A stretch of 64,000 nt of DNA, taken from assembly GCA_964023275.1 (NCBI GenBank), contig OZ029916.1, positions 20,963,389-21,027,388 on the forward strand, in the 5' to 3' direction. Of this stretch, positions 29,413-64,000 are shown piece after piece. Numbering within the stretch: position 1 is the first letter of the stretch; each line of letters opens with the position of its first letter. The stretch comes from Norana najaformis. Its lineage: Eukaryota; Annelida; Clitellata; Crassiclitellata; Hormogastridae. The notes under the pieces are model-generated. The model worked only from the letters and a program-made list of their open reading frames with translations. It had not been told where the DNA came from and made no database searches. The translations under genes and the position numbers were made by a program.

Positions 29413-29415
29413 CAT

Positions 29416-40966: not shown

Positions 40967-43900
40967 TCATTGCACGCCTCTGTCAACATTAGTTGCAAAC
41001 CATAAGAACTGTGAATTAGCAGCTCTATGGCCTGGTGAGAAGGCAATTCTGAAGCCAAAGCAACAATTTCCCACTCCCTGTGTGTCATCAGCAGACAACA
41101 GAAAGCTTTCTTGAATATCTTGGTTTGAAGTTCAACAGAACCGAAATGTATTGTGTAAAAACTGTACAAAAAGTCATGCAAATTACACTGAATGCACTGC
41201 TGGTACCTTGCATTTCTGTGTCAGTTTCAACTTTGAACATCGCTGTAGCTTTAGTCTTCCTAATCTGATTCTCAGAGGGATTCACATGCGAAAGCTGCAA
41301 ACAAGAAAGATTTATTTCCAAATAATAGTTCACGAGATACTGTGCATCCAAAGTTTTTGTCAGATTTTACCAGCAAAACCCAGTTCACTAATTACAAATT
41401 TACACATATATATGAAAGTTTGGGTCTGTGACTATGCAACAACTGAAAGACGACTGGATATATACCCAAACTTCATCTTAACTTTGAAATGAAAATAAAA
41501 TAGTTTAAAATATTTCCCACCTAGGTTCTACCTAAAGACCTGGGAATCCTGGTTACCTTTGGCAAAAACAGATTTAATGATTTTTTAAGAAATTTATGGG
41601 AATTCATTATTTCTGACTTTCTACAAGAAATATGTTTAATCCTATAATTTTTCTGCAACGCCTGAAAGACGGAATGAATAAAAACACAGTGTGTTGTTCA
41701 ATCACGGTAAACTGGATTGAGTAACTTACTTCTGTATTCTTTGCAATTAAAAGTTGATCTTCAATACTTTCATTGTCTGAAGTTTTTGCTGAACTATGAC
41801 TGCAAAACACAGACATCTCAAAAGCCACATCTGACGAGATTTCTGTAGACTTGGCCAAAGAATTAAGGAAGACAAACTTTGCATCTGAACCTGTGAAGGT
41901 TGTAAAAACAAAATGCGGACTGCCCTGGTTCATGTTCTGTTCAGAGTTTGCTTGCCCTTGAGTTTTGTTTAGTTGTAGTCTTAGAGACAGAGTTGGAATC
42001 TGGTTCTTATGATCAGATACTGCATCTATCTGTACAATAAAGAATAGCAGCCTTCTAAAAAAACTATTAATCAAGATCAGATTTATATATTTATGTAGTT
42101 GCACCCTCTGAAACTTAAATCAGGTTATTATTTAATAGTAATTGAGACTTTTCAGATTAAGGAGTAGGTTGGCTCAAAAGCAATCTACATGTATTAAATT
42201 TACCCATTTTAGCCAGCTTTTCTCTTGAGCTGATAATTCATTTCCATCCGTTTCTGGAAATTATTTTGTTTAATGCCTTTCTGTTAGCCATTGGGACATT
42301 AAGCCAGGCTTGATGGGAGACTCCAACTGCTTAGTGGACTCTGCATGTGGGGTATGTTGTGCACATCGTACTGGGGTTGATCATAGACAAAATGCAAGGC
42401 AAGTTCTGTGACACATACCTAAACCCTGCATCTAATACCTAAACCCTGGACTTGGGAATTCATCCAGTGGTGACAGAAGAGACTAAGAGAAGAAAATCAG
42501 CACATCCCATTTGTCCCACTGTGAGGTTTAACACTTTACACATACTACAGTTTAAAAATAACTCAAAACAAATCAGTGGCAGACTCCTACTGAAAGCTAC
42601 AATGGATGCACTGTATAATTCTCTGTAAAATCATGAAAATTGTGTTTTACATGGTAATTTGGTGCAGGGTGCATGAAATGACAATAAGTTTGGTTAATTT
42701 AAGTAATTTAAACCAACCTTTGCTGGAGGTCCAATCAGGGATAGGAGTACAGGCAGAACCACCAAACCATCAAAAACACCAAGCAGTATGAAAGCCACAA
42801 TAACAATTAAGATATACCTGCGATAACAAGCCAATTACAGCCAAGATAAATTGGTAGCAACTGTAGTCTTGTTGAAGTCTTGTATAACAGTGACATAAAA
42901 AGCAATCCATCCATTCAACTCCTGTTACAGATTTGTATTGCAACTGTGGTTGCACTTCTTTTGTGCCTAAAAAGCTATAGTTGTGGAAAACAACTTATTC
43001 ACTGGCACTCAATCAAAACAAAATTGATGAGGCAGGTTGGCTGAGGTCAGTTTCTTATTTAGTATGAAAATATTACGTGTTTAGTGGATGCAGTTTGGAG
43101 GAAAAGCAACAAGGAAGATAAGGAGAAAATGGAGAATCTGGGTATGATTTATTTAGTTTTTTCGGCTTCAAGTGGAAGGCCTGATGAGAAATTTGCAATA
43201 GAAGCAGTGTAGGTAAGCACTGCATGGGTCATAGATATGCCCTAGTTCTGGATTAGATTGTACACCCTGGATTATGATGTGAGTTACTGGTATTAGGGGT
43301 TGATTAGGCGGCAACTGTGTTACTACAAGCGTCCACACACAAATGTCTCCTGCAGTTTGTTGGCTGCTACCAAACTGGAATTTGTTATTTATGCACTGTA
43401 TTTGTACAGAAAAACTGAGAGAATTATACATGAGAACTATGTAAAAATTTAAAATACACTGGAACCTCCTCACACTGCTGTCGTTGGCAGCTATATTAAG
43501 AACCACCTTATAATGATGCTAATGCTAATCATGTTATAATGAGGGCATTTTCTAAAGCTCAACAAAATTTGGGATCCATGGACCCAAGTGTGTTATATCA
43601 GAATCCATGTTATAATGAAGTGTGTTAAAAGGAGGGTCTGGTGTATTAACCTGAAAGAGGACTGCATATTTCAGCACTCCAATCCCCAGTATGGCTGAAT
43701 CTCAAGTCCTTTTGTATTGCCCTGGCATTGACTAATATGCTTATCAGTTTTGGTGCACCACCCACTGATGCCTTGGGTGTTATCACAGTGTGCTTAAGAA
43801 ATCATTAAATTTAATGAGTACCTATAAACTGAAAGCCCAGAAGACATGATACTCCTCAAACAAGAACAACTAATTTCAGTACAAGTATTATCAAGCACAA

Positions 43901-46900
43901 GTAATGGTAAATCCAAAATCAAACAAGAATAGTTCCAATCTAGCTAATGGGTGGCAAGACAGCCTAAACTGACTAAGGTAGCTAGACAGTCTTTCAGACA
44001 CATTAAGCTGGAAGTGGCCTATACCACACCACTGTACTTAAAGTAATACAGGAGTTATCTCAGCCTCCAAGTGGCAGCCTGTTTACCATAGCAACATGAA
44101 TAACTGCCTTTGTTGCTCTTAAAATGGCGTATCAAAAGCGACAATGCAGGAAAAATGGCTTCTGGAGGTTGCTGCCGCAGCTGTCAGGAGAAGAGTGCTT
44201 TCTTTGAGCAGCGAAACCCTCGCATGGTGTGTCCGTAACAATGTTCATTGCAGATGTTCATCAGAATCGCAAACTGCTCAGTGACTCAAGTGGAAGGTAT
44301 TAATGGCCAGGAAACTGGGTGTTACTCGCAATTTATGGCATGACTCAAGAGTTGCTTGTGCATCTGGTATTTTCTGATCTCTACAGATGCTAATAAAATC
44401 CAAACAGCAGAAACGATGCAAAGAGGTCTTGTGTTATTATGAATAAAACTGAGATAAGTATTTCTGCCACTTAGGATAAGACTATGGGGTGATGACGACT
44501 ACAGCCTTGGTGATGAAAGCAATTATCTTTCTCAATTTTATCTAATGTCCTCGTTTATCATCACGTTCACTAGACGATACACAAGGAACAGAAACCACAC
44601 TACATAATTCAGCCCCAATCTGAACTACTGACCTCTAGACAGCCCCCCACCAAGCTATGTACTACACTGCTATGTTACAATTGCATATCAAAACTTAGCG
44701 TTGTAAATCAAAACGTTCAGGCCTACAGAGTGTATAATCAGTAATGCAAGGCTCAAGCTGTAAAAGAAAAAATAATTTATCACTTCAGAGCATCAGAGAA
44801 TTAAAATACTTTCCGATTGGTCTGATGAATTACTGCAACAGAAATTTGTGAGAAGACAATAACTTAACCATGTAATTTGCAGATAATATTTTTCAGTTAA
44901 TTTACACAAAACTAAAAAGCTCACTTAGTAATGAAATCAAAGTCTGAACTGACAAATCCAATAATTCCAATGACTGTAATTATTGATCCATGGAAAATGG
45001 AATTTGCTGAAGTTTCCAGGGCCGCCGCCATCCGATAGTTTTGACTTCCCAAAAGCATGAAAAATTTCTGAAATGAAAAAATGATCTCAACATGTCAAAA
45101 TTTATCAAGTGATAACATATGTCAGGAAATGCAGAGATTAATAATAATCACTCAGCAGTTTTACTTGGGTTATGCAGCCCCTTACAGAAAATTCCATGGG
45201 GCCATTATTGATGGATGTTGTATGACTGGATGCCCTTCCTATTACCAACCTCCATTCATCGTCTGCACATACGTTCTCTAGTTATCCATTCTTTAACCAT
45301 CATTTATCAACTCTAATTACTTTCATCCTTGACAGACATATGCTTCTAAACTCAAACTCGTTAAGAAATGTTTAACTGTCTACTATTTATATAATTTGTT
45401 TTGTCTGATGCCAAAATTAGGGGAAAGTAGCAATATAATAATTTACATCTACACAGCCAGTGAGAGATATAGTAGAATCAAAAACAACACCCAAATTACA
45501 AGCAGCATCAGCCAAATCAACAAGTGAGTCACAGTTAAATAGCCATGTGCACAGCATTTCTGAAAGGTAGTTAAAAGGTGTTATATTAAATGCCCTGATA
45601 CATACATATATCTTGATACACACATAGTAGTACACAGTAATGGTACCTGTTTCAATCAAATGTAAAAATGAATTTTTATTTCCAATGAAAATCTCTGTAG
45701 GAAGAAAAGCATCTCTCCATTGGAAATTATTTTTATGAAAAGCGGTTCTGCATTAACCATTAACCACAGAAATGTTATATTAAGCTGCTTTTATTACCAA
45801 TGATAGATGAACAGTGAACTTTGCTCCAAAACCAATGCCCACAGTTATAAATGTAGCTGTAATGGCATTTATGCCGATGCCAAATAACCCAAGAAAACCA
45901 AGAACTTGTATAGTCAAGACTGTCACAACAACCACCTAAATCACAAATAAATTTAAATATAGACAATTGCACAAATTTTAAGATGAAAACTAATATTTCA
46001 CATTTTAAAATTAAAGTCCACATGCAAACCGAGAAGTCAGTTTTAATGCCAGCTCATGGCAGAATTACCACATAATAATTACTTTTCAATGGTCATGAGA
46101 TCAAAAGACCTAATGGATTCAGCCCTGTGAAACGAAAAAACTCAGAAACTACACTTTCCAAGCAGTATGTTTCCCCTAAACTGGCCAACTATTGCCATCA
46201 TTATTAATCGAAAAAATGACCATCACTGTTAATCAACACTGATATGACAATAATATTATGCCAATTAATTATTTAAACTTAAGATGCATGAAAATAATTC
46301 ACCTGGTTCAGTGCCTGTAATTTGTAAGAGCCCAGGTTTTCCTGACCACTTTGCAAGGAAATTACATGACTTTCACATTATATTTCCTTACATAATCAAA
46401 AGACGTTAGAAAATTTCTTGTGAATTTGTACATTACTCTGCACCTTCTGCTTAGCTTTTAATGCTTCTAAGCAGTTACCTTTTTTCAATAAAGTGAATTT
46501 CTAAGAGAAAGTTTTGCTAATTACTGTCAAACAAAGATCCTAGAATCATGAAAGACTGAGGCAAAAGCTCTGAACTCACAGCAATCGTTGCAGTCCTAGC
46601 ATCCATGAGTGCCAGACAAAGAATGAAAAACACAAGAAGGGAAGCAACTATTGCAATTCCCAGGAAGAAGTGTAGACTGTTGTACTGTTCAAAGAACGTG
46701 AATATGAGTCCTGCTGGAAAATTGGGCAGATCTCTTGTCACAAAAAAATCACTGATGTTGCGGATCTCCTGACAGTGCAACAAGAAGTTTCAGTAGTTGA
46801 GGCCTAATTCCAAGCACTTGTATGCATCATGAACTCCAGCAAATAAATTTGAAAGATTTAAAAACACTAATGCTACGATCAGCAAAAATAATATTATTTT

Positions 46901-49900
46901 GAAAAACCTTAACAAAACCATATCTTCTTAGACAAAATTAAGTTTGTAAAACAAGAAGTTACAGACTAAAATTAGGTCTGATTTAAACTGTCATCATATT
47001 TAACTGATATTAGATTTCAAAACAGTGGATAAAGTTACCAAATACACAAACAATCTAGATGCAAGATTATTTTGTGACTGCTGAGATACTTACTTGAATG
47101 GTGGCCATTGCTGTTTCTGTGTCTTTTACATTACGAAGATGAAATGGCAACTGAGTAAGCGTCAGATGCTGTGACTTTGGGACTAAAAATTAGTACAGAT
47201 TTTATCCCAAAAAAGTACTTAATGCAAATTGTAAACAAATTTAAAGAAAAATTGTTAGTCATTAGCTTAAAATAGTGTATGGAGAATTACTTCTCAGAAA
47301 AGAATTTTTCAACTGAATTTCACACAGGGCAGAGGAGCAGAGTAAACGATTAAAATTTCAAACCAGACATGTGAATCAGTCAATGGGGAGTTTAGAGGTA
47401 TTTTGCTGTAAAACAATTAAACATGAAATATACAGTGATTAACAGTGACAAAATGAAACTCACTTTCTAAATTTTGATCATCTTTGTCATGAAACCATTG
47501 ATGGGGTGATGGTTCCAGGTTACCCTCTGAGAAGGTGAATTCTAGGGCACTGTTGGAAGCCCATGCCGAGAGGTAAATGTAAAAGCCAGGAGGGTATATG
47601 ACACCCTTCTCATCAACAAGTCGTCCCCCAAATACCTAATGCAAAAATGTTTTGCATTAGTTATTAATTAATCTGTGACTTTTTTCAAGCCAATATGCTT
47701 TATTGTCTCAATGTAATTCACAGAAATAAAATTTCAGTTGGGGCTTGAATTTGAATCCACTAGCTTTGCAAGAGGAAGAAACACATCACTATTTTATTAA
47801 TAATAATAATAACAACACTATAATGTAAATAATTTACCAATTACACTGCTTCTTTAGTGGTGCTTTCAACAACACTTAAGGTACAATCACACAATATGAT
47901 TTCCGGTCAACACTAAATGAAGACAGAGAAATTGCTCAAGACCTCTGCAACAGATTTGAATCTCTGGCTAACACAGTCCATACATGGGGCCCATTCAAAT
48001 GGGCAGTAGTGATGAAGTTTTCACCAATAAATTCATTGCAAAATGAGCAGGGTTGAGGTCACACGGTTGCTATATACTGTGTACATTTACATTTACAATG
48101 ACAAAGAATGACTAGAGGAAACACACTGCTATGGCACATAAAGCATATCACAGAGGAACCTGTGTGATGTACTTCAATTGCCTTACTAGACGAAATAAAT
48201 CAATGAAGTAAAAGCTAACCAAATCAAAGACAGAATGTAATCAACACAAATAATGAATGGAATCTTTCCCTACATCTGTATTCACAATGTTAACCAAGTG
48301 ACAACCTGATAGGCTGACTGACTAACTAACTGACTGACTGACTCGTTGCTTGTCGAATGGATTGTTTTCATTGCCCGTCTGGATGATGAGTTTGTACCCA
48401 AGGCGCGCATCAGATGAAGAATTGCCCAGCCAACCATCTTCCGTGATACATTTAGACCTCAACCCACTGTCAAATGCATCTTGTACATCTAAGAAAATTT
48501 AAGCAAAATCAACTGTTTAGCACATCCAAAAAACCTTATCCTCAATATCTTAGTATCTGAAAAATAGAATTCAGATAAATAATAAGAATTTAGAATTTAG
48601 ATAATAATAAGATAAAAATAATAAGAATTTTGAATTTAGAAAAATGATAATAATAATAAAAATAAATAATAATAATAAATAATAGACAAATAATAAAATA
48701 ATCTGACCTATGAAATGAAGAGAAATAAACCGAATAAACAAGAAAGGCATGTAAAATCTAGTGGTTGGCATGATGGGCTGTCAACCCCAGAGGTCAGAGG
48801 TTCAAATGGTTACCAGGACAGAAAGATATTCCAAGACTTTTGCTCCATTGGTAAAACCCCTAGCTATTATCACTAAATATAAAATATTATAAAGTGTGAG
48901 TTAAATTCACTGTAAATGCACTAGTGATAGCTTGGCTTAGTCAGATGACATGAACATGTGTGGTTTCAGTTTACCATAATTCATATTTAAGTGGAAAGAG
49001 CAGGTTCCAAGGAGAACTGGCCAACCACCTTTATATGCTGAGACCAAGAAAATGAAGTTGCTGACATTTCATACCATCACCAGTTACTTATATTAAGCCT
49101 TATATTAAGTGTAAAAAGCAGGTTGGAGTCGAACAATCAATCCTAAGGTGTTGTTTTTATATCAACTTAATGACTTAACTAAACCAGAAGTTACTAAACT
49201 AGACCACACAAGTTGTCTGAATTGAATAAATTGCTACAAACTTTTCACTTACAGAAAATGCAACCTAAAGTAATAGACCTACTGATAAGCCAAGATCTGA
49301 AGAACTGAAGCCAGAAGCCAGGACGTTGACCATCAGATGTCTTCACAATGGCATCCACATGAAGAAAAGCTTGGTGATACGTATACAAGAGCAGCTGACC
49401 TCTCGCAGATGAATAGTCAAATTTCTCCTGCAAAGAGTTTAGCACTGTGTCCAGAAAAATGTTTTTAAAAGCATTATACATGGATAGATATTTAACTCTG
49501 CATACCAAAATAAAGTGACTCAATAAGAATATTCACATGAGAAACACCAGTGAATCAAGATGAATTAATGAAAAGTCACCAAAGACGAAGAATGCTGCAA
49601 ATATTTGAATCCTTGTCAAATATGAAATTCAGGACAACTCACAAGCATAGCTGACTGGACTGGCTTCTGAATTTTTGTTTCCCATGTTTAATATTCAGCT
49701 TAAAGATCCTCCAGCCATGAACCTTGCCTTCGGGAACCAGTGCTGATGACTGCATTAAATAACATTCAAACAGTTCACCAAACACACCTCACCTTTACCG
49801 AGTGAGGTAAGTCAAGCGATATAAACGCTTTGTTGTCGAGTCATGTAAGCCAAAAGGAAAGGTTTCCTTGGATTGCTGTTGTTCTTCACTTGAAGGATCC

Positions 49901-52900
49901 CTCAACTTTCAAGATCATGTCCTCAGAACTAATGCTGACAGCGACATGTAATAAATGAGCAAGTACATACCTCACTTGACCTTACCTTAGGTGAGGTACA
50001 GCGAGCTAGGCTGAGCATAAATGCTGAGCCACAATCCAAACAGCTAATAAAATTCCAACTCCAACCACTGCAATCAATATAAGGCATTCATCACACTCTT
50101 CAATTACCAATTATAGATGCTGGCAATCATAAGCAGCAACCTACCATTGTAACAGCAGAGAAACTGGAAAATCCAAAATGCCTGAACTCAGATTCAAGAA
50201 AGCCATGCACAGGAGACGAATGTGGAACTAGTTCACGGAGGCTGAGACTGTCATTTAAATGTGTCATTCCATATACACCAACAACCAGAGATATAAAAAA
50301 TATGCAGATGACCACAACCTAAGTACAACAAGACAACTAAATAAATAAATGGTAAGTACAGATAATTAATCCCAGTAAACAACTACATGTATTTGTATAG
50401 TGCAATTTATGGTAACTGCTTGGGTTAGAATAGCATCACTTCATTATGCGTGCTGTAGAAAAGCATCTGACCATGAATTTTTAACTACTAATTAAATCTC
50501 GAAGAAATTCCGGTACAAGTACTCGAATCATAGCCTATATCCTCGGAGGAAAAGGACAATACTTGACCATTTTACTGAATGTCATAACTGTTGCACAACA
50601 GAAAACACTTATTTCATTACCTTGGTGACAGCTTCTTGCAAAAGTGGGCCATATATATTTCTGATGAAATAAGAAATCTGAAAAAAATGGAATTTTGTCC
50701 ACATTATTGAAAAATACTCTTTGCATTTGTTCTGGTTTTCATCAGTGAGACACTGTTGAGATGACACAGCAGCAGCACGTTGGCAGACAAATGTATCAAC
50801 TACAGCAACAAAATTGCAATCCGACAATAATTGGTAGAAATGCACCTGAATAACGCTCCTGTAATTCACAACCAAGATCTGAAAATCATAATCATAATTG
50901 CACATTCATGTAGCACCTCAAGAAAACTGCTCAGAGGAGCTCCTGGCCTAATAACACAAGACGACGATCAACTAGAATAATCCAAAATCACTGATGAAAT
51001 AGAGGCAGAGAAAGGCAAGAAGCTCATATTTCAAGTTGCAAGGTAGTCTGTTTCAGAGTGAAAGGCCAACGATGGTGAAGCCACCATGTTGCACTGCAGA
51101 AGTACTGGGTGGAGGGACAACCAGAACACCTTGTGCTGCAGAACGAAAAGATCTACGGCCAGGGATGGATGACACCGGAGTACAAAGCTCCCTAAGATAG
51201 GATGCAGCACAACTGACATGGCAGTTACGCATCAGCAAGAGGTTCGTAAACCTAATGCACATTCAAATGGGCAACCAATGCAGCTCATCCAGTATGTAAG
51301 TAGAAATCTGACCAAACTTATTGGTTAAGTGGGCTACAGCTTTTAAAACAGACTGAAGTTGCTAATGTGAAAAAGAGAGAGGCCTGCACAGATGGCATAA
51401 CCATGGTCAACCTCAGTACATCTGAATGAGTGCACCACAGCAGAAGCAGCCTTAGAAGAGAGTGAGTGGCATATAGTGCAGATCTGGCACAGATAATTAA
51501 AGGGTGTACTACACACTGTCTTCACATGCTCAGAGAAACTTGTCAGAAGCAAGGTCCCAGGGTATAGTAAAGTATCCCATATCCCATAAGTGAGACATAG
51601 AGGAGGTGCTCATCTCCTTTTCTTGACCCTTGACCTGGCAATGGACAAATCTCAAGGTCTTGGACATGGAGCCAGTGCATCCCAGGACTTGTCATTTACT
51701 TCCAATCTTATGCTGGTACCAAATCATACTGCTTGGTGACAGAGGCACGGTGTGCACGAACAACTTGCCCAGGGTTGTTACATGAAATTGAACCCGCAAC
51801 TGCATGATCATTGACCAAACGCTTTACCGATAGACCATCGTGCTGCACATAAGGTCCCAGGGTGGAGCAAAGGATCTTTTGACTGGAGCACACATAACCA
51901 CAGCAATCCAAAAAGGACACCTTTTAACTGTCCAACTTCTACTGGTACTCATTTACTGACCACATAGTTTTGGCATGCAAATCTGACGCAGATCAGCTGG
52001 TATCGCATGAACAGTTACTCATCCAAATACTACTGCACTCATTGTTGCTTAACTTCACTCCCTATGCTAGCACAGTAATCCACGACACCAAGCCATAGTC
52101 AGAAACAGGATCAGAGTCTTTGGTTCAAATCTGACCAGATTACATAAAAATGGAAAATAATGTCAATACTGGAAAACCTGCCAGGAAAATATGTTTATTT
52201 TTTGGTAAGTAGATACTGTATATATAACATATATAACATAATATATAACATATATATATATATAATATATAACAGTCGACGATCAAGTATGAACAGATAT
52301 GAAAACAAAGGCACACAATAAATGTATAACAACACACTTGAACTTCTTAGAATACCATCAAAAGCTCTAAAAACTTTCCATCAGATCAGAGTTAGTTTAA
52401 ATAATCAAATTACAAATCTACCTCCATTCTGCATTTGTGATATGAAAGTTTCCATAGATTTGTTCTCCGCAGCGCTCTCGGTTACTGTAGCAACCTTTCC
52501 ATGGCACAACAGAGTTTCATCTCTTGAAAAGCATCTGGACCAGAGTTGATTCCCAGGAGCAAAGTCATTTTCTGTAGGCTGGAAATTTCTCTCACCAGTG
52601 CACAGCTTTTGACCACTGCTTTAAAACACGGAATATCATGAAACCATAACCTAACTATATCTAATAACAAACCATCTACAAAATATTACTGACTAAGTAA
52701 ACAAGTTGATGCCAGCTTTAGCAATCTCCTGTACCTTTTTGCTCACAAAAAGCACCAAAAATTATTGTTACTATGATTCTCATCATAAATTATGTTGTAA
52801 TTATAATGAGTTTGCAAATTCAAGAACAAATGTAGAACAAAACTACGATAATTTCCATGATTACAGTAATCCACGATTACCACAAAATTAATTGTCATAT

Positions 52901-55900
52901 AATGAAAACAGCTAAACTAATGACAGAAACTGATGGTACATCAGAACCTAGCCAAAAAGCCCAGCTGAATTAAGAAAGTCAGTCTACAGAGATGTAACAC
53001 AGAAGCTTATGTGCTACATGGTGGCTGAACAGAAATGTTTGCAAATTTAAAATAATATCCAGAACTCCTGAACTAAACCTCTGTTGGGCTCAGGTGTCTT
53101 ATTCACCAGACCAGCTGTACCCAAAAACCATTTTCATGATCAGGTATAGAAAGAATGTTTCCCATGAATTTAGGCCCATGTGACAGCCAGTTTGTGACAG
53201 CTTGTGCCAACAGTGTCATTTTACTTCCCCTACTCCCAGACACCCTGATCCTTGATGTGCCGTGCACAAGGACAGCATTAGACTCTCATGTGTTCATGGT
53301 GGCTGGTCCAAGAATTTGGAATTCACTGCCTAGTTCTGTGCATTCTGTCAGTTCTTTACTGTCAATTAGGTCTAAACTTAAGTCTCATCCGCTTTAACTT
53401 GCTTATCTGACTTCTGATTTCCCAGATTTGTTGGATTTTGACTGTGCTTCTCCAACAGATTAAGAATTCTGTCTACAGTTTCACCTGAAGTGACCATCAA
53501 TTGATGTTTTATGCCTTATGATAACTAGATCAGATTAGATGGGTTAGGCAATGTCTAATAAACAATAAACATATATCATAGACTTACGGTAATCAAAATA
53601 ATATTTATAAAAGACAATTGCTTCATAGACTAAGTTGATAATCTGCCAATCAATCCTTAATGCTGAGCACATAAAAATTATCATAATATCATAATAATCA
53701 TAATAACAGTATTTTAGTAATTGCAATAATAATAACATGAAGAAGAATGATAAAGAATACATTGGGTGTTTATGTTACTAACCACAAGGAACAGCAGAGA
53801 GGGTCAAGAGACATCTTTTTCTTTTGCCAAAGGAGACCATGATTTACGAAACCAAGATAGATGAGCAATATAGACACCATGTTGACAAACATCAACACTG
53901 CACCCTGTAAACACAAAATAAACAAAAACAGACTTAGCCTATTTACAACAAGTGATGAAATTGTTTCACATAATCATCTGTCTTCAAGTTGTCCGATCCA
54001 ATTCACTTTCTCCTGAAGCCAAGGAGATGTTCTTGTAATATGCCTTATAACGACTCATCTTCCTTCAACCATCTCTGCCACTTTATTTCTAGTCATTTTC
54101 TTTTTCAGGTACGTCCTGGACCACAGGTGCATCCATGAGGGGAGAATGCCCTCATTTCCCTAGACTTTGAATGAACATGAGTGTAATTGTACCCCTTACA
54201 ACTTTTGCATGAAGCCGATGTTTTCATAGGCACAAAGCTGGCTTGAACGCCCAATAATTTCATTGACAAACTTACATGTTTTAGCCAACCCTATATTTTC
54301 ACAAGTCAACTTACATAAAAACAACAGTCTTTTGCCAAATCAAAATCCAGACTAAAGGGTAACCTAAAAACTAATGCAAACAAAATATGTAAAAAAATTA
54401 GCATAAAGACAATTTCTGAAGGGTGAGAGTAAGAGCACACTCAACAACGTTCATCCTAGACGTTTAAGCACAGACTTTAAGACTCCATTATGCACTGAAA
54501 AGATCAAAGGTTAAATGAAACATCAAAAGATCTGCTGGCAGTGTGCCATGCAAACAAATGAACATCATGCTCCAGCAACAGAAAAGATTACAAATTTATA
54601 TGCACCTAATCAGAGCAAAACACAGGAGCAAAAACAACACTGATAAAGACCACCATGCATAAGACTACAAAAGCCATCTGTTTTCTGTGCAATGCCATTC
54701 ATTAGGCAAAGCCCATGTTTCGTCTTAACTTCTCCCTTAGCAGCATTTGATTCCATTCCGACTTGATGACAGCTACACTTAAAATTTATTAATGATTTCC
54801 AGTCCCACACAGAACTCCTTCAAGTCTCACAGCATTAGTAACATTTTCAGCCTGTTCTACATAGATATCTGGTTACAACAAATATATAATACACCTACAC
54901 ATATACTGATATATTATATATATAAATACTGTATATCTGGTAAAGGCATTTTTATACATTTATATTTACTTTAAATATTTTGTATAACTATATTTTATAT
55001 ATATGTATACTAGCCAAGTTATTTTATGCCTTATATCAAGGAACTCTTGCAAAACACTAGAACTGAACTATTGAGACAAGCAAGCAACAGTTCAAATATC
55101 AAGGCAACAACAACAACAACATAATCCACTTCAGAAAATGAATTAAGATGCTTATTCAAGAATTACAAAAACTTAATTCCAAGCAATTAACCTTGGCAAA
55201 TAGATAAAAAAGTATTAATAGTACATTTTTAGTTGCATTATCTCATGATTATCTGATTAGCAGTAAATTTAAAGACCAAATTAACAGCTGTGCCAGCAAG
55301 AATAATTTTAATATTCAAACGAAAAACAGCAATACGTATACATCAATGTTTACTGTAAACAAGTGCTTACGGTAAACATTGCAGTGTCAGTCAGCTTTTG
55401 CCAAGATGTAGGTGAGTGTAAAAGTACAGGTTTTTCTATAGCAACCATATGGCCTCGACCCTGCTAATTTTTCAATGAATTACTCAGCTAAGATCCTTCA
55501 ACACTGCTGCCTGTTTGGATGGGTGCCACACCATTTAAGGTCCCTGTGTAGGTGGAGAGCTCCTAAATAGTCACAGCTGTGTTCACCAGATTTTAATCAC
55601 AGCAGAGGCTGCAACAGCTAGCTTCACAATTAGGTGCCACAAAAAATCCAGATTAGGCAGTCACGAAAAAGACACTGAGATGAACAGGAGCATTATAAAT
55701 GAGAACTGTCTACTTCACCTGAAAGCAGAAACTCTGTATAGCAGGGATCGAACTAATGGTCCATATGAAGAAGGTGAAACTGATGCAAACTGATGTCGTA
55801 AGGATGACTTTACAACATTCTCTATGGCACCTGGTAACTAATTCCTAACAAAGAAATCAAATTTCACCTAATTAATCAGTTAATCAATTTAAAAATCAAA

Positions 55901-58900
55901 CAAACATATATGAACTAATCTAATTCATCAGAATGAAAAACTTGCATTATGATCTTTATTTATTGCTTATTTGTTTATTTACCATACAGACTCACATACA
56001 AGTGAACCCCACATATAATAACCAGCATATTATTATAAAGTGCAAAGGTCCCTCTCTCTGATGTATGACTAAAGTTGGTGTTTAAGTTGGTGTGCTGAAA
56101 TAACAATCTGTAGATGTGTTGATGTCCTCCCACAGATGTGTCGTATGATCTGCAGATGTGTCTAGCAATTTTGGCTTAACTGTCCTGTAAGGTGACCCAC
56201 AAGTTTAGACATTCAGAACTGTCCAAAGCTGCTCAACTTGTGTGCAAGTATATATGATGTTTAATTAATTATTATGTTCTTACTGTTTGACGAATGTCCA
56301 ACTTGGTCAGCTGAGCGTAATTTTGCACAGTTAGAAAAACATCACTGGCTCCCAATCCAATGATCAAAAAAGGTAAAATCTAAAAGAAAAACAGACGAAA
56401 GAGGAGATAAAATTAAACCAAGAATTGCGTACTTGATCATCAGTGAGAACTGATAGAAATAAAGGCTGGCACACATACTTGCACAGTGGCAACATTGAAC
56501 TTCAGGCCAAGAAGTGAACAGATTCCAAATCCAGCAACTGTTGACAGCAAGACGTGCATCAGACCAGCACATCCAAGAGCCACCAGATAAGGTGCAGGAT
56601 CAGGCAGCTCAACTAGCATCAGACAGATGTAAATCAACTGAAATGCAAAAGAAGTCAAACCTAAATTATGCAGAATGCAGTCCTAAATGCCTAACCATAG
56701 TGCAGAACATCTTCATCAAGTTACGTTTGAGAACAGAGGATGGAGTAGGATCATCAAATAGAATACTAGTTTCTCCTTAGTGATAAAGTACTCCTGGTTA
56801 CCCTGATCTAATGGATTTTGACTGCACTTCTCCAACAGATAACGAATTCTGACTATTGTATCATCTGATGCAACCAACGATTGATAATAATAATGACAAT
56901 TTATAGAGTGCCGTAGTACAGTCAAGGCCAGAAGAGGGCGCTGCACAGGTACAGTTAGTTGCTGACTGCAGCCACATGTGGTGCAAGTGTCAGCTTATAC
57001 ACTGCACAACAATTAATTAACAAATTAAAAAATATGTGTCCAGTCAATTACTCCATTATCTTTGAATCCTTTTCTACAGAATTCCTCACCTACTGTTTTG
57101 CTTGGATATCTTCCACGAATGACTTCTACATGGCATCACAAAAACAAATTTGTGTGAAGTACAAGTGCTTTAGCATTCCATAGCTATTACTAAAACTCCC
57201 ATATTTCAATACATTACCTAGATCAGATCAGCTGGCATAAGTGATGCCTTGTGCATTATGATAACAGCTCTACAGAAGTCCTTAGATTAGATTAAATCTA
57301 TGCCGAATAACTAGTTTAGTTTCTGCTTGCTTACCAGGACAATGCACACAAGCGCAACTGTTGTGATATTAACTTTGGAAGATTCTTCTAAACAGTCTTT
57401 AAGATTCAATAACGAGAAGGAATAGACATCATCTGCATTCGAGTCATTTGTTGTCGACAAAGATGAAATCTCCTGGATCTTCTAGAAAAATATGTTGCAA
57501 ATACAGAAACATCTACCACTGCACGTTCTAGCAAAGCAATTGTTTCTCAGCCTCTCCAAGACAATGTGTTAACAAAGTTAAGCTAAGTCAACATAAGATA
57601 AGGCAAGGTACTATTATATAAGCTAAGGTAATACAAGGTCAGATAAGGCAAGGAAAGGTAGGATAAGTTAAGCTAAGGTAAGACAATTATCAGTGAATAG
57701 GATTCACATATCCACCAACAAGTGAGGCAAAGTGGTTCCTTCACTGGTGCACGCTAGGTCTCTAGTCAGACAAGTGTGGGTTTGTGCCTGCCCAGCAGAC
57801 TCTGTGTGGTGAAACTGGACTTTCTTCTAAACAGTCTTTAAGATTCAATAACGAGAAGGAATAGACATCATCTGCATTCGAATCCTGGAGCGGGTGTTTG
57901 TGCACACTTGTCTTGCACCCTGGATTCAGTTCAAAAATACCTTGCACACATAACAAGTGCAATAAACAAAATAAATAATTCAAAAACACTGAAAATATAA
58001 ATAAACAATGTAAACATGAGAACCCACCTGAGTGAACACTCGCTGCCATGCCTCAAGGACTTGTTTTGTAAGACTCAGGTTCCAGTTCAGATCATGAACT
58101 TTATAGGTGTCACGGTAGAATTCATAAAGTTCTTTTTCACCCATCAGCTGCACAACTGACTGAATGGCTTCAGCTCTGAAACACAATTATTTAATTTCCT
58201 GGATTAATTTTCCTGGTTAATGAAGGGAAGTAAAATAAAAGACTGACAGCAAGGCAGTCAATAAACTCCATTCATCTACCAACGATGACTTTGTGCACAG
58301 AAATATTTGTAATCATAAACTCAAGATTTCTACAGCGCCCAAAGAAAGCTAAGTTGTGGGAACCAGCTAATTCACAAGTGCTCAGTCAAAACAAATTCGA
58401 CAAGCAGGATGGATCAGATTTGGTTCCAGGTCAAGATCCGAGAGTCAGGCAGGAACTGAAGCGGCAAGATAAATAAAGGGAAGAGCAGAAATCAGGAATA
58501 GATTTGTGGAAGAGGAGTGCTTTCAGTTTTGAGTGAAAGACATGCTTAGAGATTGCAAGAGGTGAAGTTTTGGCAAGCTCGTATGATTGGCAAGAGATTG
58601 TGGTATTTGGCAGGAATTTACTTCAGAGGAGAGGAGCAGCTATGGCAAGGAAGTGATTTCCAATTTTTAGGATGAGGTTACAGGAGGGTGGAGAAGCGTT
58701 AGGGCAGAAAAGGGGCAGGTTAAACAGTGGTTGGATTGTAAATAACTGACAAAGATAGGAGTGTTGGGAGGACTGAAGTGTGTTGTAGGTAAATGATAGG
58801 ACTTTGTTCAGGTATTTTAAACCATGGAAGTAATTAGAGAACAGAAGTGATATGATGATGTTTGGGGTTTTGGTGACCGCAACAGTAAGAGCATTAATTT

Positions 58901-61900
58901 TGTAGATGGTTGATAGGTAGATGTCTAAGTTGTTTCCAACACTTAGATACCAAGGCATCACTGACTGATCCCACACATTACCACACCGACCTTTAACCGG
59001 CCTTTCAAGGGTTCGCCAAACATTACACAGCTGAGAAAAGTGACTTTCCCCAATGCAGCTAATTTAAAGAAAAGGAACATGAAATAATATCTTAAACAAA
59101 ATAAATATTTGTATGACATGACACCCTAAAATGTGAAGTGAAGCAACAATGCCACATACTAATAAGGTCTGTAAGACACAAAATAATGATGCTTTCAATC
59201 ATCCAAGAGCTGCTAATAATTATTCACAGCTAACTTCAGTGCAAGGTTATGAAAACTAAAAAGTGAAACCACTAAAATAGGCCTATCTCTTTGAACTGGT
59301 AGAGGTTTCCCATTAGTGTTCTTTTCTAACTTCAGAGAAAACTGTCAGAGTAAATAATTTAAGTTAACTTTCTAGTAACTACAAGCATCAATCAGACAGA
59401 TTTCAAAGGGTGCCAGGATGAAGTCTCTCAAAAACAGCTATCCAAGTGCTGTACCCAGTCATCTGGAATGGCAGGCTTCATAATTTTTTAGATCCATAAC
59501 ATAGCCACATATGCAGTACTGCTGAGAAGTTCCAAATGGCACCTCGCACTCTCTCTCTATATATATATGCATATATATAATATATACATATATATGTCCA
59601 GGTGCAAACACACAAACATACCTACATACGCACATACCTACAAACACACATACATACATACATAATAAATAAGGCATACATACAAACACTAGACAGACCA
59701 CACAAACAGACATACATGCATATACATGTATGCCCATTCAGCCATTTTTAATCTAAACTAATCTACTGATTTTTATTCTGTCAATTACAATAGGGAAAGT
59801 CAATTCGCTTAACAGACAGACAGAGTAGGAAAGATAAGCGTACAACAACGCATCTGATGAGAAGCTATCCCATTTCAAAAGAGCCTCTGAGAACTAAATA
59901 TTCTTAAGATCCGTTAGTGGTGGCAGGCTGAAGCCAAGACCACCCAGAGACCATCCACTTGGGTGGTCTTGCTATCAGAAACCAGGACAACTATCGGCAA
60001 AGGTCGGTGCACACAATGGGTGGTAGCCAAACCGAGGTGTTTATAATAGGTGCCATCCATATCACTTTCCACCAGATTATTGAAAGAGATCAAATGCAAG
60101 GCAAACCTCCTACATCTGTCCTCCTTTTCCTTCTCTCTCTCTCTGTCTGTCTGTCTGTCTCTCTCTGTCTCTCTCTCATGGCTCAGCCAGCCAAACTGTT
60201 TGACAATAACCACAAGCCGAGCAATCCAATCAGTGTTTGTAATGCTAAACGGGGGTCAGGATAAGGTAAATCAAACATTCCCCTTTCTCCCGCAGACAGG
60301 CTTTAGCACAAATTCCTCAAGCCTTGCTAAGAATAAGAAACCATGTCAGACAGACAGATACAGACAGGCAGACAGATGTGACAGACACACAGGCATGCAG
60401 GCATAGGCGCAGGACTTGGGCTTAAGATAAGAGGGGTCTGGACCCACAATGAGCCAAAACAGAACGGGTGCTAAAAGTCAGCAATTGTAGGTTAAAATCA
60501 TAAAACTGACAGACTACTGCAACAGTCAAAAATCTCCACAGGTCAAAATCTCCGCAGGTCAAAATCTCCTCAGGTCAAAATCTCCACAGGTCAAAATCTC
60601 CACAGGTCAAAATCTCCACCTATAAAGACCAGATGCCCACATAAGAAGAAAAACCAGACCAGTCCCTTAAGCTAGCCTGACTTCATTTTCTTAGCCTCAG
60701 CATATGACGGCAGGCGGCCAGCCTTTTCCCACTCTTCCTCATCTTTCCACTGACAATGTATCATCAATGTACTCATTATAGCTTAGCCATGGGCACAATC
60801 TTAAAACAAATTTCTGCCCTGGCAGGGATTTGAACTACCAACCCCTTGACTAACAGTCCAGCACATCAATCGCTAGACTTAAACCAGATAAACTATACTG
60901 ATAGGTACACTCAGTACACCAGGCTAGTACACCCAGATAAAACACCAGCAACGACATTACACGATATTACACAAATTAGGAAAGTGCAGGAGTATAGATA
61001 CAATAAGAAAAGGAGGATTGTAGAAAGATAGCCTAACTCAGCAGAATGCAGCAAAATCATATCCATGCTACAAAGTATGTCAGCGCTGCAAAAAGAAAAT
61101 CTGGAAAAGCTGTAAATCTAAATAAACATAGGCTTGATTGTGCTTTGTATTGGTCAGAGTTCGTCTGGCGATTGTTCTGCGTGGACTGTATGACAGTTGG
61201 TGTTAATTATAATAGAACCATTGACAACAGATGTTCAGCATTGTTGCAAATTATTTGTAAATGAAGTCATGACTCACAGAAGCATGCATGATAAGATTTA
61301 ATTCAGCGTTAAAGCTACTAACCATTAATGATCAAATTTTACCAACAAGATTAAATTTTAAAGGAATGGTTCAGTTTACCTCAAAATGCGTCCAGATGCA
61401 CTTTTTGAAATGCCACCAATGATCAAGTCCTCATCCCACACCATATACCTTGTGGCAAATCCAGTGCATCCATTTGCCAGTACCTTCTCCACATCAGGTA
61501 ACTGAATCACAGCACAGCAGAGTTCAATTAATCAACAGACTGTTATAAGAACTCAATAAATTTAAAAAAGTCAATTTAAAAAAAATTGTTTAAAAGTCTA
61601 ATAAGCCAAAATTCAGAAATTTGATAGTTAAAACTTACAGACAACAGTTATAACAATGATAACATAATAATAATAACAATAATTTCCAGCCTGGAAATTA
61701 ATGACAAAGAGCGACGACTGATAATGATAATGATGATGACAACGATAAAATTATGACAACAACGATGATGATGACAATGATGATGGCACTGTACTGATAA
61801 TGATAACTGAAAACAGTTGTATCACTGGCAACAATGCTGATGAAAATTGAGCCTGTGACTGCATGTGACTGCATGGCTGCAAGGGCCAGGAAACTAAAAC

Positions 61901-64000
61901 TGTCAGTAAATAGAATTATGATCACGACAGCAGTGATGATGATAACAACACTGATGATGACAACGACATTGATAACAACAAAAAAGATGCTAACATGTAT
62001 ATTTATGCATCAGAGCATGCCAGGCTAGGAGCTTTTTCCTTGGTCAGTGTCAAAAGCACCTAGGACTAAGGGACTTGATATTCTAACATATTTGTTGAAT
62101 TCTTGATTCATTTCTAATACAGATTTTGTATGGCATACAAGTGGCACACACCATATCAGTGTACCATATGTAGGACATACGGAGCCAATTTGTGGAATTT
62201 TTCATATTCTCACCATATGTTCAGCACATGATGTGTTGTCGGGGTAGCAAAAATAATGATGACAATAATGGTGGCAATGAAGACAATGATAACGTTAACT
62301 GCTACCACACAAAGTGGCACGTATTTAAAATACGACTATAAAAAATTATACCTGTTTGTTGAGATAATTTGGAGCTGTTACAGGACATTCTGGGTCGAAT
62401 GGGTTCAGACACGGCAGCTCCTGATAGGCTGATGTAATTCCAGCCTATGAAAAAGCAGCTACAAAGTTTTACGCTCTACTTTGGCACTGCTGATAAGACA
62501 CCAGTAGGAACATTGAAGGTAAGCAGTAACTGTCTGTGGAATACCATTCCACCTGATGCCCACTTAGTCATTCATTATTTTGGAGTCAGTAAACTATTAC
62601 GAACAAAAGTTGGAAGGTTTATCAAGATGTCCTGTTGTCGATTGGCTTTGGTTGTGTTTGTTACGCAGTGAAAAGGTCCTCCAACCTTGAGACCATGAGA
62701 CTGAGCAGTTTCTACACAGGCATGCAAACAGGTACTACCTTTACCTTTAAATATTCTTTCCAACTCCTCAAACAAGGCCTTAACCTAAATCCCCACCCAA
62801 ATTTTTAACTGAAATTGTCAACTAAGTGTCAGCGATCAAGATTCACTTCTTAAGGTAAGTTTTCCCTTAAGTTGAGGTAAATTAAGGTGAGGTATAGTAA
62901 GTAGATGGAAGGAAGATAAGCTTAGGAAAGGCAAGATAAAATAAGTAAATGGAAGGTAATGTTGGGTCGTTATCTATTCCACATATATCCTAAAGCATCA
63001 AACAGTGCTCTGCAGTACTTAGTTACTTTTCAAGTGGAAATATTTTCCTGTGGATATGTGCCTCGTTGGTCGGTACCACACCATTTGCAGATCCTTCTTT
63101 CTGCAATTCAATTCATGCTAAGCATGCCTCGTTGTGCATCAGACCTCAACCATCTTTTTGGAATAATCTTCCAATGCATGTACATGCAAGCCTCAGCTCA
63201 ACATTCACATTCAGCTTACAATAAGTCAGACTCTTTCATATCAGTAGATAGCCACATGTGTGGCACTCCTGAGAGGTTCTTAGACGCACGAAGTGATTTG
63301 CGGTTGGAAGCAGTGGGGAAAAGACATTTGAACAGAAGCATCATTACCAGTGAAAATGCATCTTAGAAGGTTATCATCTGAACCAGTAAGAGAAAGACCC
63401 TAATTCCTCTCTCTAGAAATCGCTGTTCAAAAGCAGCTATATAATCATCATGATATATATATATATATATATAAACATATATGTAAGAGCAAGACAGCAA
63501 TGGGATAACCTCATCTTGTGGGTTTGTGGCTTGACATTTAATTGCAAACTTTGCAAAACCCATGCTCAGGAAGTGGACTCCAAATTCAAAGGTTAAAGGC
63601 ATTTCAACATTTTCCATCTGCTAAATATTGGTTTAATAGCTGCAATTCACATAATCATCAGTAACCTGTAACTGTCTACTTAAGAAAGCAAGATGGGCTC
63701 AATACAATAAAATACCAACTTTTATTCTGCTTCTATTGTGTAACAACTCATTAAAACCTTCTTCTTCAGAAACTATCTAGGCAAAAACCACAACTTGGTT
63801 TCACTCTATGTCTCACTTCTATCACAGTTTCAGAACAGTTCAATATAAATGTGCATATGTTTGTTCCATAATCATCATGAACACATTACATTCAAAGATT
63901 CTGCTTTGATTCATTATTACTTAATCTTCATGAAAGTTAAATTATTTATAAAGAACATGAAATTATTTATAAAGACTCACGAAAGGAACTGTTTTAAGAA
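40967..64000 (-). CDS. PTCH-like: Patched-family 12-TM protein with sterol-sensing domain (N-terminus beyond right edge)
   Basis: RND-superfamily membrane protein; classical Patched is the Hedgehog receptor that exports sterol from the inner leaflet. Exons in transcript order (descending): 64000-63981, 63620-63510, 62444-62352, 61501-61380, 58175-58028, 57481-57335, 56637-56479, 56379-56284, 55844-55719, 53904-53783, 52615-52422, 50878-50846, 50677-50621, 50318-50145, 49427-49283, 48488-48343, 47635-47464, 47182-47094, 46768-46580, 45935-45798, 45067-44925, 42817-42718, 42029-41730 and 41077-40967. Matches include PCLNPFDPECPVTAPN, QVLEAWQRVFTQ, GFGICSLLGLKFNVATVQ, VVGVYGMTHLNDSLSLREL and FYIYLSAWASN. 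About 1,040 residues are visible and roughly 280 are missing. Phase is continuous except in the central cytoplasmic loop (52615-50621), where exon choice is unresolved. The C-terminal tail is short, with no PPxY seen. Its last exon is supported only by phase. TM4 and TM10 relay acids are replaced. Confidence 0.93.
41730..42029 (-). CDS. Patched-family exon for the cytoplasmic tail
   Basis: A 100-codon exon, phase 0 at both ends, directly after the TM12 exon that ends LLSLIGPPAK. It is rich in Ser, Asn, Gln and Thr, and I see no recognised motif in it. PTCH C-terminal tails are poorly conserved. A good acceptor (TTGTACAG) and donor (GTAAGT) support it. The final exon 41077-40967 adds 36 codons then TGA. 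Another open frame over that exon exists and would give a different end. Confidence 0.75.
42968..43235 (-). mobile_element. Non-LTR 3' end (GCGCTGTAGAAAT family)
   Basis: AACTTATTCACTGGCACTCA and AAACAAAATTGATGAGGCAG followed by a CTTCAAGTGGAAGGCCTGAT region match the copies at 12.0-12.25 and 58.33-58.57 kb. It lies in the Patched-family intron between the TM11 and TM12 exons. Confidence 0.6.
43455..43645. mobile_element. MITE of about 190 bp with pogo-type terminal inverted repeats
   Basis: It starts TACACTGGAACCTCCT and ends AGGAGGGTCTGGTGTA, whose reverse complement is TACACCAGACCCTCCT. The two ends match at 13 of 16 positions. The interior is AT-rich with repeated TTATAATGA. The ends resemble those of the pogo-like element at 33452-34454, so that family may have mobilised it. 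Confidence 0.65.
43735..43820 (+). mobile_element. Non-LTR tail remnant (ATTAG-tailed family)
   Basis: TTGGTGCACCACCCACTGAT, GCCTTGGGTGTTATCACAG and GAAATCATTAAATTTAATG correspond to the 3' end at 30200-30285. Confidence 0.45.
44590..44700 (-). mobile_element. tRNA-derived SINE fragment (minus)
   Basis: The reverse complement shows TAACATAGCAGTGTAGTACA, CTTGGTGGGG and GAGGTCAGTAGTTCAGATTG, with A- and B-box spacing like a tRNA. It is diverged. The neighbouring 44100-44460 stretch looks repeat-derived but I could not assign it. Confidence 0.4.
45798..45935 (-). CDS. Patched-family exon carrying TM9-TM10 (GxGxE motif altered)
   Basis: It reads VTVLTIQVLGFLGLFGIGI and ends TVGIGFGAKFTVHLSL. 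The PTCH1 equivalent is ASVGIGVEFTVHVAL, aligned without gaps over 25 residues. The conserved Glu is Lys here (AAG on the minus strand, 45821-45819). It is phase 0 on both sides. The flanking FTVH is kept, so the alignment is secure. Confidence 0.92.
48302..48344. repeat. GACT/AACT microsatellite abutting a splice donor
   Basis: CTGACTGACTAACTAACTGA continues with GACTGACTGACT up to the exon edge at 48343. On the minus strand it is a (GTCA)n tract whose first unit provides the GTCAGT donor of the exon ending PFDKQR. Confidence 0.8.
48755..48835 (+). mobile_element. tRNA-derived SINE fragment (plus)
   Basis: TCTAGTGGTTGGCATGATGG (A-box half, very like the tRNA-Glu/Asp type TCTAGTGGTTAG) is followed by AGAGGTTCAAATGGTTACC (B-box half). 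There is no complete cloverleaf. Confidence 0.6.
51030..51580 (-). mobile_element. Unassigned decayed repeat
   Basis: A GC-richer segment with several overlapping short open frames on the minus strand and no family motif I can name. Its composition differs from the surrounding intron, which suggests an old transposon fragment. It is not a recognisable host exon. Confidence 0.3.
51695..51860 (-). mobile_element. tRNA-derived SINE (minus)
   Basis: Reverse complement: GCACGATGGTCTATCGGTAA (A-box region), GCAGTTGCGGGTTCAATTTC (B box), then a tail CTGGGCAAGTTGTTCGTGCA. This is the best preserved SINE head in the window. It lies in the Patched-family intron covering the central loop. Confidence 0.6.
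53090..53545 (+). mobile_element. Non-LTR retrotransposon ORF2 3' end (ATTAG-tailed family)
   Basis: The plus-strand frame reads AGPRIWNSLPSSVHSVSSL then IRSKLKSHPL near 53300-53395. This is the conserved terminal region of CR1/L2-like ORF2 proteins. A 3' UTR ends in AGATCAGATTAGATG near 53540. It is 5' truncated, and it links the ATTAG-tailed fragments elsewhere in the window to a coding element. Confidence 0.75.
56284..56379 (-). CDS. Patched-family exon carrying TM4 (GxGxD motif altered)
   Basis: The exon starts ILPFLIIGLGASDVFLTVQ. In PTCH1 the equivalent is VLPFLALGVGVDDVFLLAH, so the first of the two acidic residues (GVGVD) is Ser here. The codon is AGT on the minus strand at 56346-56344, and the following Asp is kept. 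It is phase 0 on both sides, with a clean acceptor (TTTCTTTTAG) and donor (GTAAGA). Confidence 0.92.
56800..56960 (+). mobile_element. Composite retroelement tail remnant
   Basis: GATTTTGACTGCACTTCTCC and ATCTGATGCAACCAACGATT match the ATTAG-tailed family. Downstream, from 56885, it passes into the short repeat shared with 38845-38915. Confidence 0.5.
57223..57300 (+). mobile_element. ATTAGATT-tailed non-LTR fragment
   Basis: GTGATGCCTTGTGCATTATG, ATAACAGCTCTACAGAAGTC and the tail TTAGATTAGATTAA match the 3' end at 30215-30285. It lies about 35 bp from the donor side of the Patched-family exon 57335-57481. Confidence 0.6.
57585..57690. repeat. Degenerate AAGGTAAG/TAAGCTAAG repeat
   Basis: Loose repetition of TAAGCTAAGGTAA, ATAAGGCAAGG and similar words. 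A similar tract lies at 62850-62960, and a related one around 49790-50010. Many words resemble splice donors on the plus strand, opposite to transcription. Confidence 0.5.
57822..57881 (-). pseudogene. Perfect 60-bp duplicate of part of the Patched-family exon 57335-57481
   Basis: 57822-57881 is identical to 57383-57442 over 60 bp. On the minus strand it encodes SNADDVYSFSLLNLKDCLEE. It sits in the intron upstream of the parent exon. It is preceded by CACCCGCTCCAG|GA, which could act as an acceptor in the correct phase 0, and is followed by in-frame codons to a stop near 57762. It is probably a recent insertion or duplication rather than a used exon. Confidence 0.85.
58323..58930 (-). mobile_element. 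Non-LTR retrotransposon ORF2 3' portion
   Basis: On the minus strand the motifs are GLKYLNKVLSFTYNTLQ then SSQHSYLCQLFT (the usual 'LLLTYKALNGLAPSYL' region), IGNHFLAIAAPLLWNK, and VFHSKLKALLFHKS. These are followed by the CTGTAGAAATCTTGAG tail at about 58323. Stops and frameshifts are present. It is the longest copy of this family in the window and defines the coding identity of the fragments at 11940, 13260, 37110 and 42968. Confidence 0.8.
59560..59690. repeat. AT and ACAT microsatellite cluster
   Basis: (TC)n, (TA)n and (CATA/CACA)n low-complexity tracts, with no gene content. Confidence 0.75.
60128..60178. repeat. TCTC/TGTC microsatellite
   Basis: CT-rich run TTCTCTCTCTCTCTGTCTGT continuing as TCTGTC/TCTC repeats. 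It accounts for the Ser/Leu-rich and Arg/Asp-rich open frames here. Confidence 0.85.
60526..60618. repeat. 18-bp tandem repeat, about five copies
   Basis: The unit CAGGTCAAAATCTCCACA is repeated head to tail with single-base changes (CCACA, CCGCA, CCTCA). It lies in the Patched-family intron between exons 61380-61501 and 58028-58175. Confidence 0.9.
60785..60890 (-). mobile_element. tRNA-derived SINE fragment (minus)
   Basis: The reverse complement reads AAGTCTAGCGATTGATGTGC and GGGTTGGTAGTTCAAATCCC, then TGCCAGGGCAGAAATTTG. The A and B boxes are well spaced and the B box is close to consensus. Confidence 0.6.
61695..62000. repeat. GAT/GACAAC-rich low-complexity stretch
   Basis: Alternating GATAATGATGATGACAACGA words with no coding role. 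It lies in the Patched-family intron between 62352 and 61501. Confidence 0.6.

Follow-up and report, generated by a model that had tools for sequence, protein, structure and literature searches.

A full-length annelid Patched with Ser and Lys at the cation-site acids, a candidate for Hedgehog binding or clearance without coupled transport

The window analyzed here, a 64-kb stretch of contig OZ029916.1 (C4) in the assembly of the annelid Norana najaformis (608 Mb, 17 contigs), holds most of a gene for a twelve-span Patched protein, below called the window gene, in which two acidic residues of the RND cation site have been replaced, the first Asp of transmembrane helix 4 (TM4) by Ser and the Glu of TM10 by Lys. 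Two further Patched genes are present in the genome: one, on contig C14, carries the full acidic triad and the other, on C2, has amides in place of the same two acids. The reading that we prefer, at a probability of about 0.42, is that the window gene encodes a transport-uncoupled Patched that would bind or clear Hedgehog.

By its anatomy the window protein is a Patched protein, as judged from sequence comparison. Searched against PDB with phmmer, its first 1116 residues matched PTCH1 at 670.9 bits over query residues 13-1113, compared with 98.6 bits for the best NPC1, and the 115-residue stretch covering TM4-6 gave E = 2.6e-9 with PTCH1 vs. 0.028 with Dispatched. Pfam recognized the sterol-sensing domain (SSD; PF12349, 63 bits) and the Patched domain (PF02460, 53 bits), both above cut-off. 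At a single cut-off, 12 hydropathy peaks were counted in the window protein, in PTCH1 and in C2, and 11 in C14. All six cysteines of the first ectodomain (ECD1) are kept, as are Pro504 and both glycines of TM4, and the single cysteine checked in the second ectodomain (ECD2) is Ser.

In the phmmer alignment with PTCH1, which is ungapped at the motifs, D513 corresponds to Ser, D514 to Asp and E1095 to Lys. The window gene reads GLGASD in TM4 and GFGAK in TM10, where the signature of cation-coupled RND proteins is GxxxDD and GxxxD/E. The assembly has AGT and AAG rather than Asp and Glu codons at the two positions, and the Asp codon GAT follows directly after AGT. An earlier note on this DNA had proposed a Patched-family gene with these two replacements, ungapped motifs, intact splice phases and the second TM4 Asp retained; the rebuilt exons and the PTCH1 alignment bear this out on every point.

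The gene model was rebuilt on the minus strand using reading frames, splice signals and phase. It comprises 27 coding exons, all introns are GT..AG, and one open frame of 1265 residues with zero internal stops runs from 66777, which is 2.8 kb (2777 bases) past the right end of the window, and closes with a TAA at 40218. The first five exons fall beyond the window, in L007. The extent first suggested (45798..56379) includes the motif exons, but the gene itself is longer, from 40218 to at least 2777 bases beyond the window. An acceptor site precedes the first exon of the model, which points to another exon (coding or non-coding) farther 5′; the 5′ end is probably incomplete and the start codon of the model is provisional. 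Marks of a pseudogene (frame-breaking lesions, lost splice sites) were looked for: 0/27 exons were broken and no lesion precedes the terminal TAA.

A genome search with the window protein gave 42 matches and located further Patched exon series at two places, on C2 and C14. The spliced models of both have open frames and exon lengths that are the same as or near those of the window gene, with 24 pieces in C2 and 25 in C14 over the compared region, counts that leave aside three short upstream pieces of the automatic models, two from C2 and one from C14. In C14 the cytoplasmic loop, which differed between two runs, and a 7-base piece following the TM1 exon are uncertain, and the tails of both genes are open frames rather than spliced models. 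C14 reads GLGVDDLF and GIGVEFTIH, so that a second Patched with the canonical motifs (DD and E), which the earlier note had suggested looking for, is indeed present. C2 reads GLGINDVF and GISFQFTIH, with N-D and Q at the triad positions. The C2 gene (C2:21935708-21967695) evolves slowly and, having exchanged acids for amides (D513N, E1095Q), is perhaps the most interesting of the three. C14 carries a Lys at PTCH1 T551 in TM5, adjoining the proposed cation site; in PTCH1 simulations this Thr makes occasional ion contact (PMC9949057). Counted over D513, D514, E1095 and T551 only, the formal charge is -3 in PTCH1, -2 in C14, -1 in C2 and 0 in the window protein. D1128 and H520, considered as additional losses from the cation path, were discarded: each of the three genes has His for D1128, and C14 has Asn for H520.

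C2 and C14 also have in common an N-terminal RTSWVDA exon and the tail motifs TITEE/TIAEE and PEVVVET/PEVMVHT (C2 vs. C14 tail, E = 6e-4). No match to the SWVDA motif was found for the window gene among open frames of at least 18 residues in the 12 kb upstream, in a relaxed search with E up to 10; under relaxed search its tail gave only chance-level matches with the C2 tail (E 6.6 and 8.0) and none with the C14 tail. A search with the C14 ectodomain and SSD, which scores best candidates only, returned 36 matches in all, which comprise the same three loci and weaker NPC1-like and other matches, and a fourth Patched was not found among them. Six first-look matches to PF02460, considered as possible canonical Patched genes, were set aside: by eye, L002 and L003 are NPC1-like, L004 and L005 resemble Dispatched or PTCHD relatives and L001 is Dispatched-like, and L006 falls within the C14 gene.

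The tree of the four sequences (PTCH1, C14, C2 and the window protein; 940 aligned columns) that unites C2 with the window gene was preferred in the approximately unbiased (AU) test, with p = 0.998 vs. 0.003 and 0.00004. The grouping was also recovered when the triad columns were removed and when only the ectodomains were used; membrane columns by themselves were undecided (AU 0.85, 0.23, and 0.12). On this alignment, C2 is the sister of the window gene among the three Patched genes of the genome. The earlier note had named a clade sharing S and K beside a canonical Patched as what would support its reading; a clade exists and its other member also lacks both acids, but as N and Q. The changes Asp to Asn to Ser and Glu to Gln to Lys are each reachable by single replacement changes (AAC and CAG in C2, AGT and AAG in the window gene). 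A stepwise codon path by way of the amides may have been followed, and independent losses would cost an equal number of amino-acid changes.

The two sister genes have evolved at different rates. The branch of the window gene is 0.72 long overall vs. 0.18 for C2, and the ratio is larger for the membrane domain (1.004 vs. 0.163; 6.2-fold) than for the ectodomain (0.554 vs. 0.210; 2.6-fold). Position counts, from which columns gapped in any row were excluded, show that C2 has altered 53/256 ectodomain and 39/184 membrane positions at which PTCH1 and C14 agree (21% each; no bias), and the window gene 89/256 (35%) and 96/184 (52%), respectively. Taken singly, ECD1 has 39/126 such positions altered in the window gene vs. 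30/126 in C2, and ECD2 50/130 vs. 23/130. When the count is confined to positions common to PTCH1, C14 and C2, the window gene has altered 47/203 (23%) in the ectodomain and 64/145 (44%) in the membrane (Fisher p = 4e-5). The branch ratios agree with this last count, suggesting that the membrane core, and with it the transport machinery, has been released more than the Hedgehog-facing part. A neutral simulation carried to the same replacement level produced a mean of 25 stops over 200 runs, with no run below 13, compared with 0 in the window gene, which argues that the gene was constrained for most of its history. Between the codons of the window gene and those of C2, the second position differs least (0.276, vs. 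0.610 at the third), in a pair count that includes the C2 branch.

That both sites were lost had been taken in the earlier note to argue against drift. As worded, this is weak for the window gene by itself, since, with more than half of its conserved membrane positions altered, a chance loss of the two acids would be no rare event. The double loss appears to be more than chance because the sister C2 is also without both acids and has only 39 of 184 such positions altered. Both acids are missing from two genes, of which one (C2) is, by these counts, strongly constrained.

Exons of the Hedgehog signaling domain were detected at five places in the genome, on C6, C10, C7, C11, and C1 (11 matches). 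The translated pieces contain the domain core at 5/5 loci; the CGPGRG start is present at C10, C7, and C11 and as variants at C6 and C1, and one piece was confirmed by Pfam (145 bits). Two matched stretches are about 0.3 kb apart at C11, and those at C6 are spread across 6.6 kb.

Human PTCH1 residues D513, D514, and E1095 surround an ion-like density, described as a putative ion (PMC8654371), and PTCH1 D513Y is reported to be inactive (PMC9949057). In Caenorhabditis elegans, the GxxxD mutation D697A of PTC-3 abolishes function, with no rescue (PMC3078328). These data, together with S, D and K at the site, suggest that no cation gradient drives the window protein. With the TM4/TM10 cation site dismantled in a full twelve-span Patched, the Lys ammonium would take the place of the cation bound by PTCH1 and pair with the sole remaining Asp, and the resulting neutral site would not be expected to cycle with Na+, K+, or H+. 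Cation-driven sterol transport, and repression of Smoothened by the window protein itself, would be absent. The membrane core, once free of transport, may have drifted while selection held the Hedgehog-facing ectodomain. Because the core drifts faster and ECD1 is better kept, ligand handling seems favored over transport; the most likely job would be that of a receptor-derived sink or co-receptor, which binds, retains or clears at least one Hedgehog ligand of the animal, with canonical Patched work left to C14, C2, or both. Support comes from the six ECD1 cysteines, the twelve hydrophobic peaks, the similarity along the length of PTCH1, the five Hedgehog loci and the C2/C14 terminal motifs not found in the window gene. 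Conservation of the Hedgehog-facing side was judged over whole ectodomains.

Several observations weigh against ligand handling. ECD2 is clearly less conserved than that of C2, and its checked cysteine is replaced. The private changes of C2 set against those of the window gene (11/47 in the ectodomain, 7/64 in the membrane) did not differ significantly (p = 0.20). In C. elegans, PTR-18, which acts as a sink for a protein related to Hedgehog, requires both GxxxDD and GxxxD/E according to PMC8104386, which makes a sink without the motifs less plausible.

A broader scenario, which we regard as tentative, is that a whole branch of animal Patched works without a cation engine. The ancestor of C2 and the window gene would have swapped D for N and E for Q, after which C2 would have kept a constrained, cation-independent core, and the window gene would have gone from Asn to Ser and from Gln to Lys, its site locked by an internal ion pair, to become a ligand-handling receptor amid five Hedgehogs.

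It is a credible, if somewhat unlikely, alternative that sterol is still moved or sensed by the window protein, downhill and without cation coupling, and that the same holds for C2. PTCHD1, which is described as lacking both motifs, binds cholesterol and is proposed to act along a gradient (PMC9917202), and the SSD of the window protein is still recognized by Pfam, with the Pro and both glycines of TM4 retained. The slow membrane core of C2, with its N and Q, indicates that a core lacking these two acids can stay constrained. In the window gene, however, the membrane domain has outpaced the ectodomains, which is unexpected if carriage were the main task; downhill carriage suits C2 better than the window gene.

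It is unlikely that the window gene was recently released and is heading to decay, with its function being lost and both replacements due to drift. Its long branch, the 52% of conserved membrane positions altered and the terminal motifs not found would fit such a course, but 27 exons without a lesion do not, nor do the intact ECD1 cysteines, the many stops that the neutral simulation placed in every run or the low difference at second codon positions (C2 branch included).

By analogy with D407/D408 and K940 of AcrB, the TM10 Lys and the remaining TM4 Asp might form a switchable ion pair coupled to protons, a new coupling that we consider improbable. Endosomes have a proton gradient. AcrB relies on two Asp residues in TM4 and on Lys940 in TM10, and some transporters may use a lone acid for protonation (PMC5719797); of the triad positions in the window gene, one is Asp and one is Lys. 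However, AcrB retains the first Asp (GxxxD), which is Ser in the window gene, K940 is likened to the window Lys by its location in TM10 and not by a matched helix position, charge-changing mutations in the MexB cluster abolish transport (PMC5719797), and metazoan plasma membranes are said to be without a proton gradient (PMC8654371). It is very improbable that the acids are missing through an error in the assembly or through RNA editing, for although AAG is one change from GAG (Glu), a change that A-to-I editing could make, AGT is two changes from an Asp codon and would be edited to GGT (Gly), and the separate C2 gene also lacks both acids, though editing could turn its AAC into GAC (Asp).

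The window gene has the full-length architecture, ECD1 cysteines, SSD and twelve hydrophobic spans of PTCH1 and differs from it in having S and K for D513 and E1095. Fly Ptc keeps the first TM4 Asp and is not known to have an acid in its TM10 motif. If so, the absence of the TM10 acid by itself may be nothing out of the ordinary, and loss of the TM4 Asp would be the more telling half of the change. Motif loss itself is known: 19 of 24 C. elegans PTR proteins are reported to lack one or both motifs, and DAF-6/PTR-7 is without the TM4 motif and can dispense with the TM10 motif (PMC3078328). The PTR proteins are a nematode expansion, whereas the window gene matches PTCH1 end to end. PTCHD1 resembles the window gene in being without both RND motifs, but its SSD is reported to be 23% identical to that of PTCH1 (PMC9917202), compared with 54/161 (34%) for the window gene, and the title of the same paper states that it does not bind Shh. 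The whole-length PTCH1 score argues against PTCHD or PTR membership of the window gene, in a comparison that did not include PTCHD or PTR sequences. NPC1, a sterol carrier that retains a single one of these motifs, is described as moving cholesterol down its gradient (PMC9917202) and is far more distant from the window protein than PTCH1 is. With K940 of AcrB lying near D407/D408 (PMC5719797), a Lys in TM10 is not foreign to RND proteins. Annelid Patched paralogs without both acids were not described in the open-access literature searched, nor did we find double motif loss described there for Patched proper alongside a Patched that retains the triad in the same genome.

The cation gradient of Patched is disputed (PMC8654371), and two Patched genes that lack these two acids are a natural test of the need for an ion-driven engine. 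The cation site occurs in one animal in three natural forms, DD/E (plus the Lys at T551), ND/Q and SD/K, which provides ready-made separation-of-function proteins. An annelid study detected one Ptc in each of two transcriptomes and states that invertebrates have only one (PMC9695228), a statement with which three Patched genes and five Hedgehog loci in one annelid are at odds. Several Patched genes in one invertebrate are not unprecedented, since PMC3078328 attributes three ptc genes to C. elegans. Coordinates are collected in Table 1.

Table 1. Coding exons of the window gene that lie in the window (window positions), the two motif codons, and the Hedgehog loci (contig positions).
Feature	Position	Strand	Basis
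Coding exon 6 (ECD1, PCLNPFDPECP)	62352..62444	-	splice model; PTCH1 alignment
Coding exon 7 (ECD1)	61380..61501	-	splice model; PTCH1 alignment
Coding exon 8 (ECD1)	58028..58175	-	splice model; PTCH1 alignment
Coding exon 9 (end of ECD1 into TM2)	57335..57481	-	splice model; PTCH1 alignment
Coding exon 10 (TM2-TM3, SSD)	56479..56637	-	splice model; PTCH1 alignment; Pfam
Coding exon 11 (TM4, GLGASDVF; reads ILPFLIIGLGASDVFLTVQ...)	56284..56379	-	splice model; phmmer
AGT, Ser at PTCH1 D513 (first Asp of GxxxDD)	56344..56346	-	codon counted from exon start
Coding exon 12 (TM5)	55719..55844	-	splice model; phmmer
Coding exon 13 (TM6)	53783..53904	-	splice model; phmmer
Coding exon 14 (large cytoplasmic loop)	52422..52618	-	weak conservation; boundaries from splice signal and phase
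Coding exon 15 (loop into TM7)	50621..50799	-	5′ boundary from splice signal and phase
Coding exon 16 (TM7, start of ECD2)	50145..50318	-	splice model; PTCH1 alignment
Coding exon 17 (ECD2)	49283..49427	-	splice model; PTCH1 alignment
Coding exon 18 (ECD2)	48343..48488	-	splice model; PTCH1 alignment
Coding exon 19 (ECD2)	47464..47635	-	splice model; PTCH1 alignment
Coding exon 20 (ECD2)	47094..47182	-	splice model; PTCH1 alignment
Coding exon 21 (end of ECD2, TM8)	46580..46768	-	splice model; phmmer
Coding exon 22 (TM9-TM10, GFGAKFTVH; reads ...TVGIGFGAKFTVHLSL)	45798..45935	-	splice model; phmmer
AAG, Lys at PTCH1 E1095 (GxxxE of TM10)	45819..45821	-	codon counted from exon start; phmmer
Coding exon 23 (TM11)	44925..45067	-	splice model; phmmer
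Coding exon 24 (TM12)	42718..42817	-	splice model; phmmer
Coding exon 25 (cytoplasmic tail)	41730..42029	-	open frame and splice signals only
Coding exon 26 (cytoplasmic tail)	41207..41294	-	open frame and splice signals only
Coding exon 27, with stop codon TAA	40218..40279	-	open frame and splice signal only
Hedgehog signaling-domain loci (L053-L059)	C6:6150218-6156797, C10:979074-980017, C7:859816-863709, C11:8665448-8666254, C1:25020485-25021624		

Elsewhere in the window, two immunoglobulin-domain exons lie on the minus strand, at 3477-3869 (confirmed by Pfam) and 5771-6400 (by eye), and resemble those of a LAR-type receptor tyrosine phosphatase. Upstream of the window gene, at about 73.7-89.4 kb in window-continued coordinates (L007-L009, minus strand), are a CDC20/Fizzy-type WD40 gene and an ion-channel gene, which we take to be a voltage-gated K+ channel. 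In a synteny check for segmental or whole-genome duplication, made with three exon queries, these immunoglobulin, Fizzy-like and K+ channel-like neighbors were not found within 60 kb around C2 and C14. Molluscan hemocyanin gave no match in the genome, a result that shows little as the controls were also silent; annelid hemoglobin linker models gave 29 genome matches, with a best score of 118 bits, and no match in control genomes. A 12-kb tandem array occupies window positions 17293-29420, with a 21-base unit, CCGGCCAGCATCGACACGCAG, in about 588 copies, plus longer periods and a GC content of about 0.6; the unit length alone probably accounts for the long open frames seen there.

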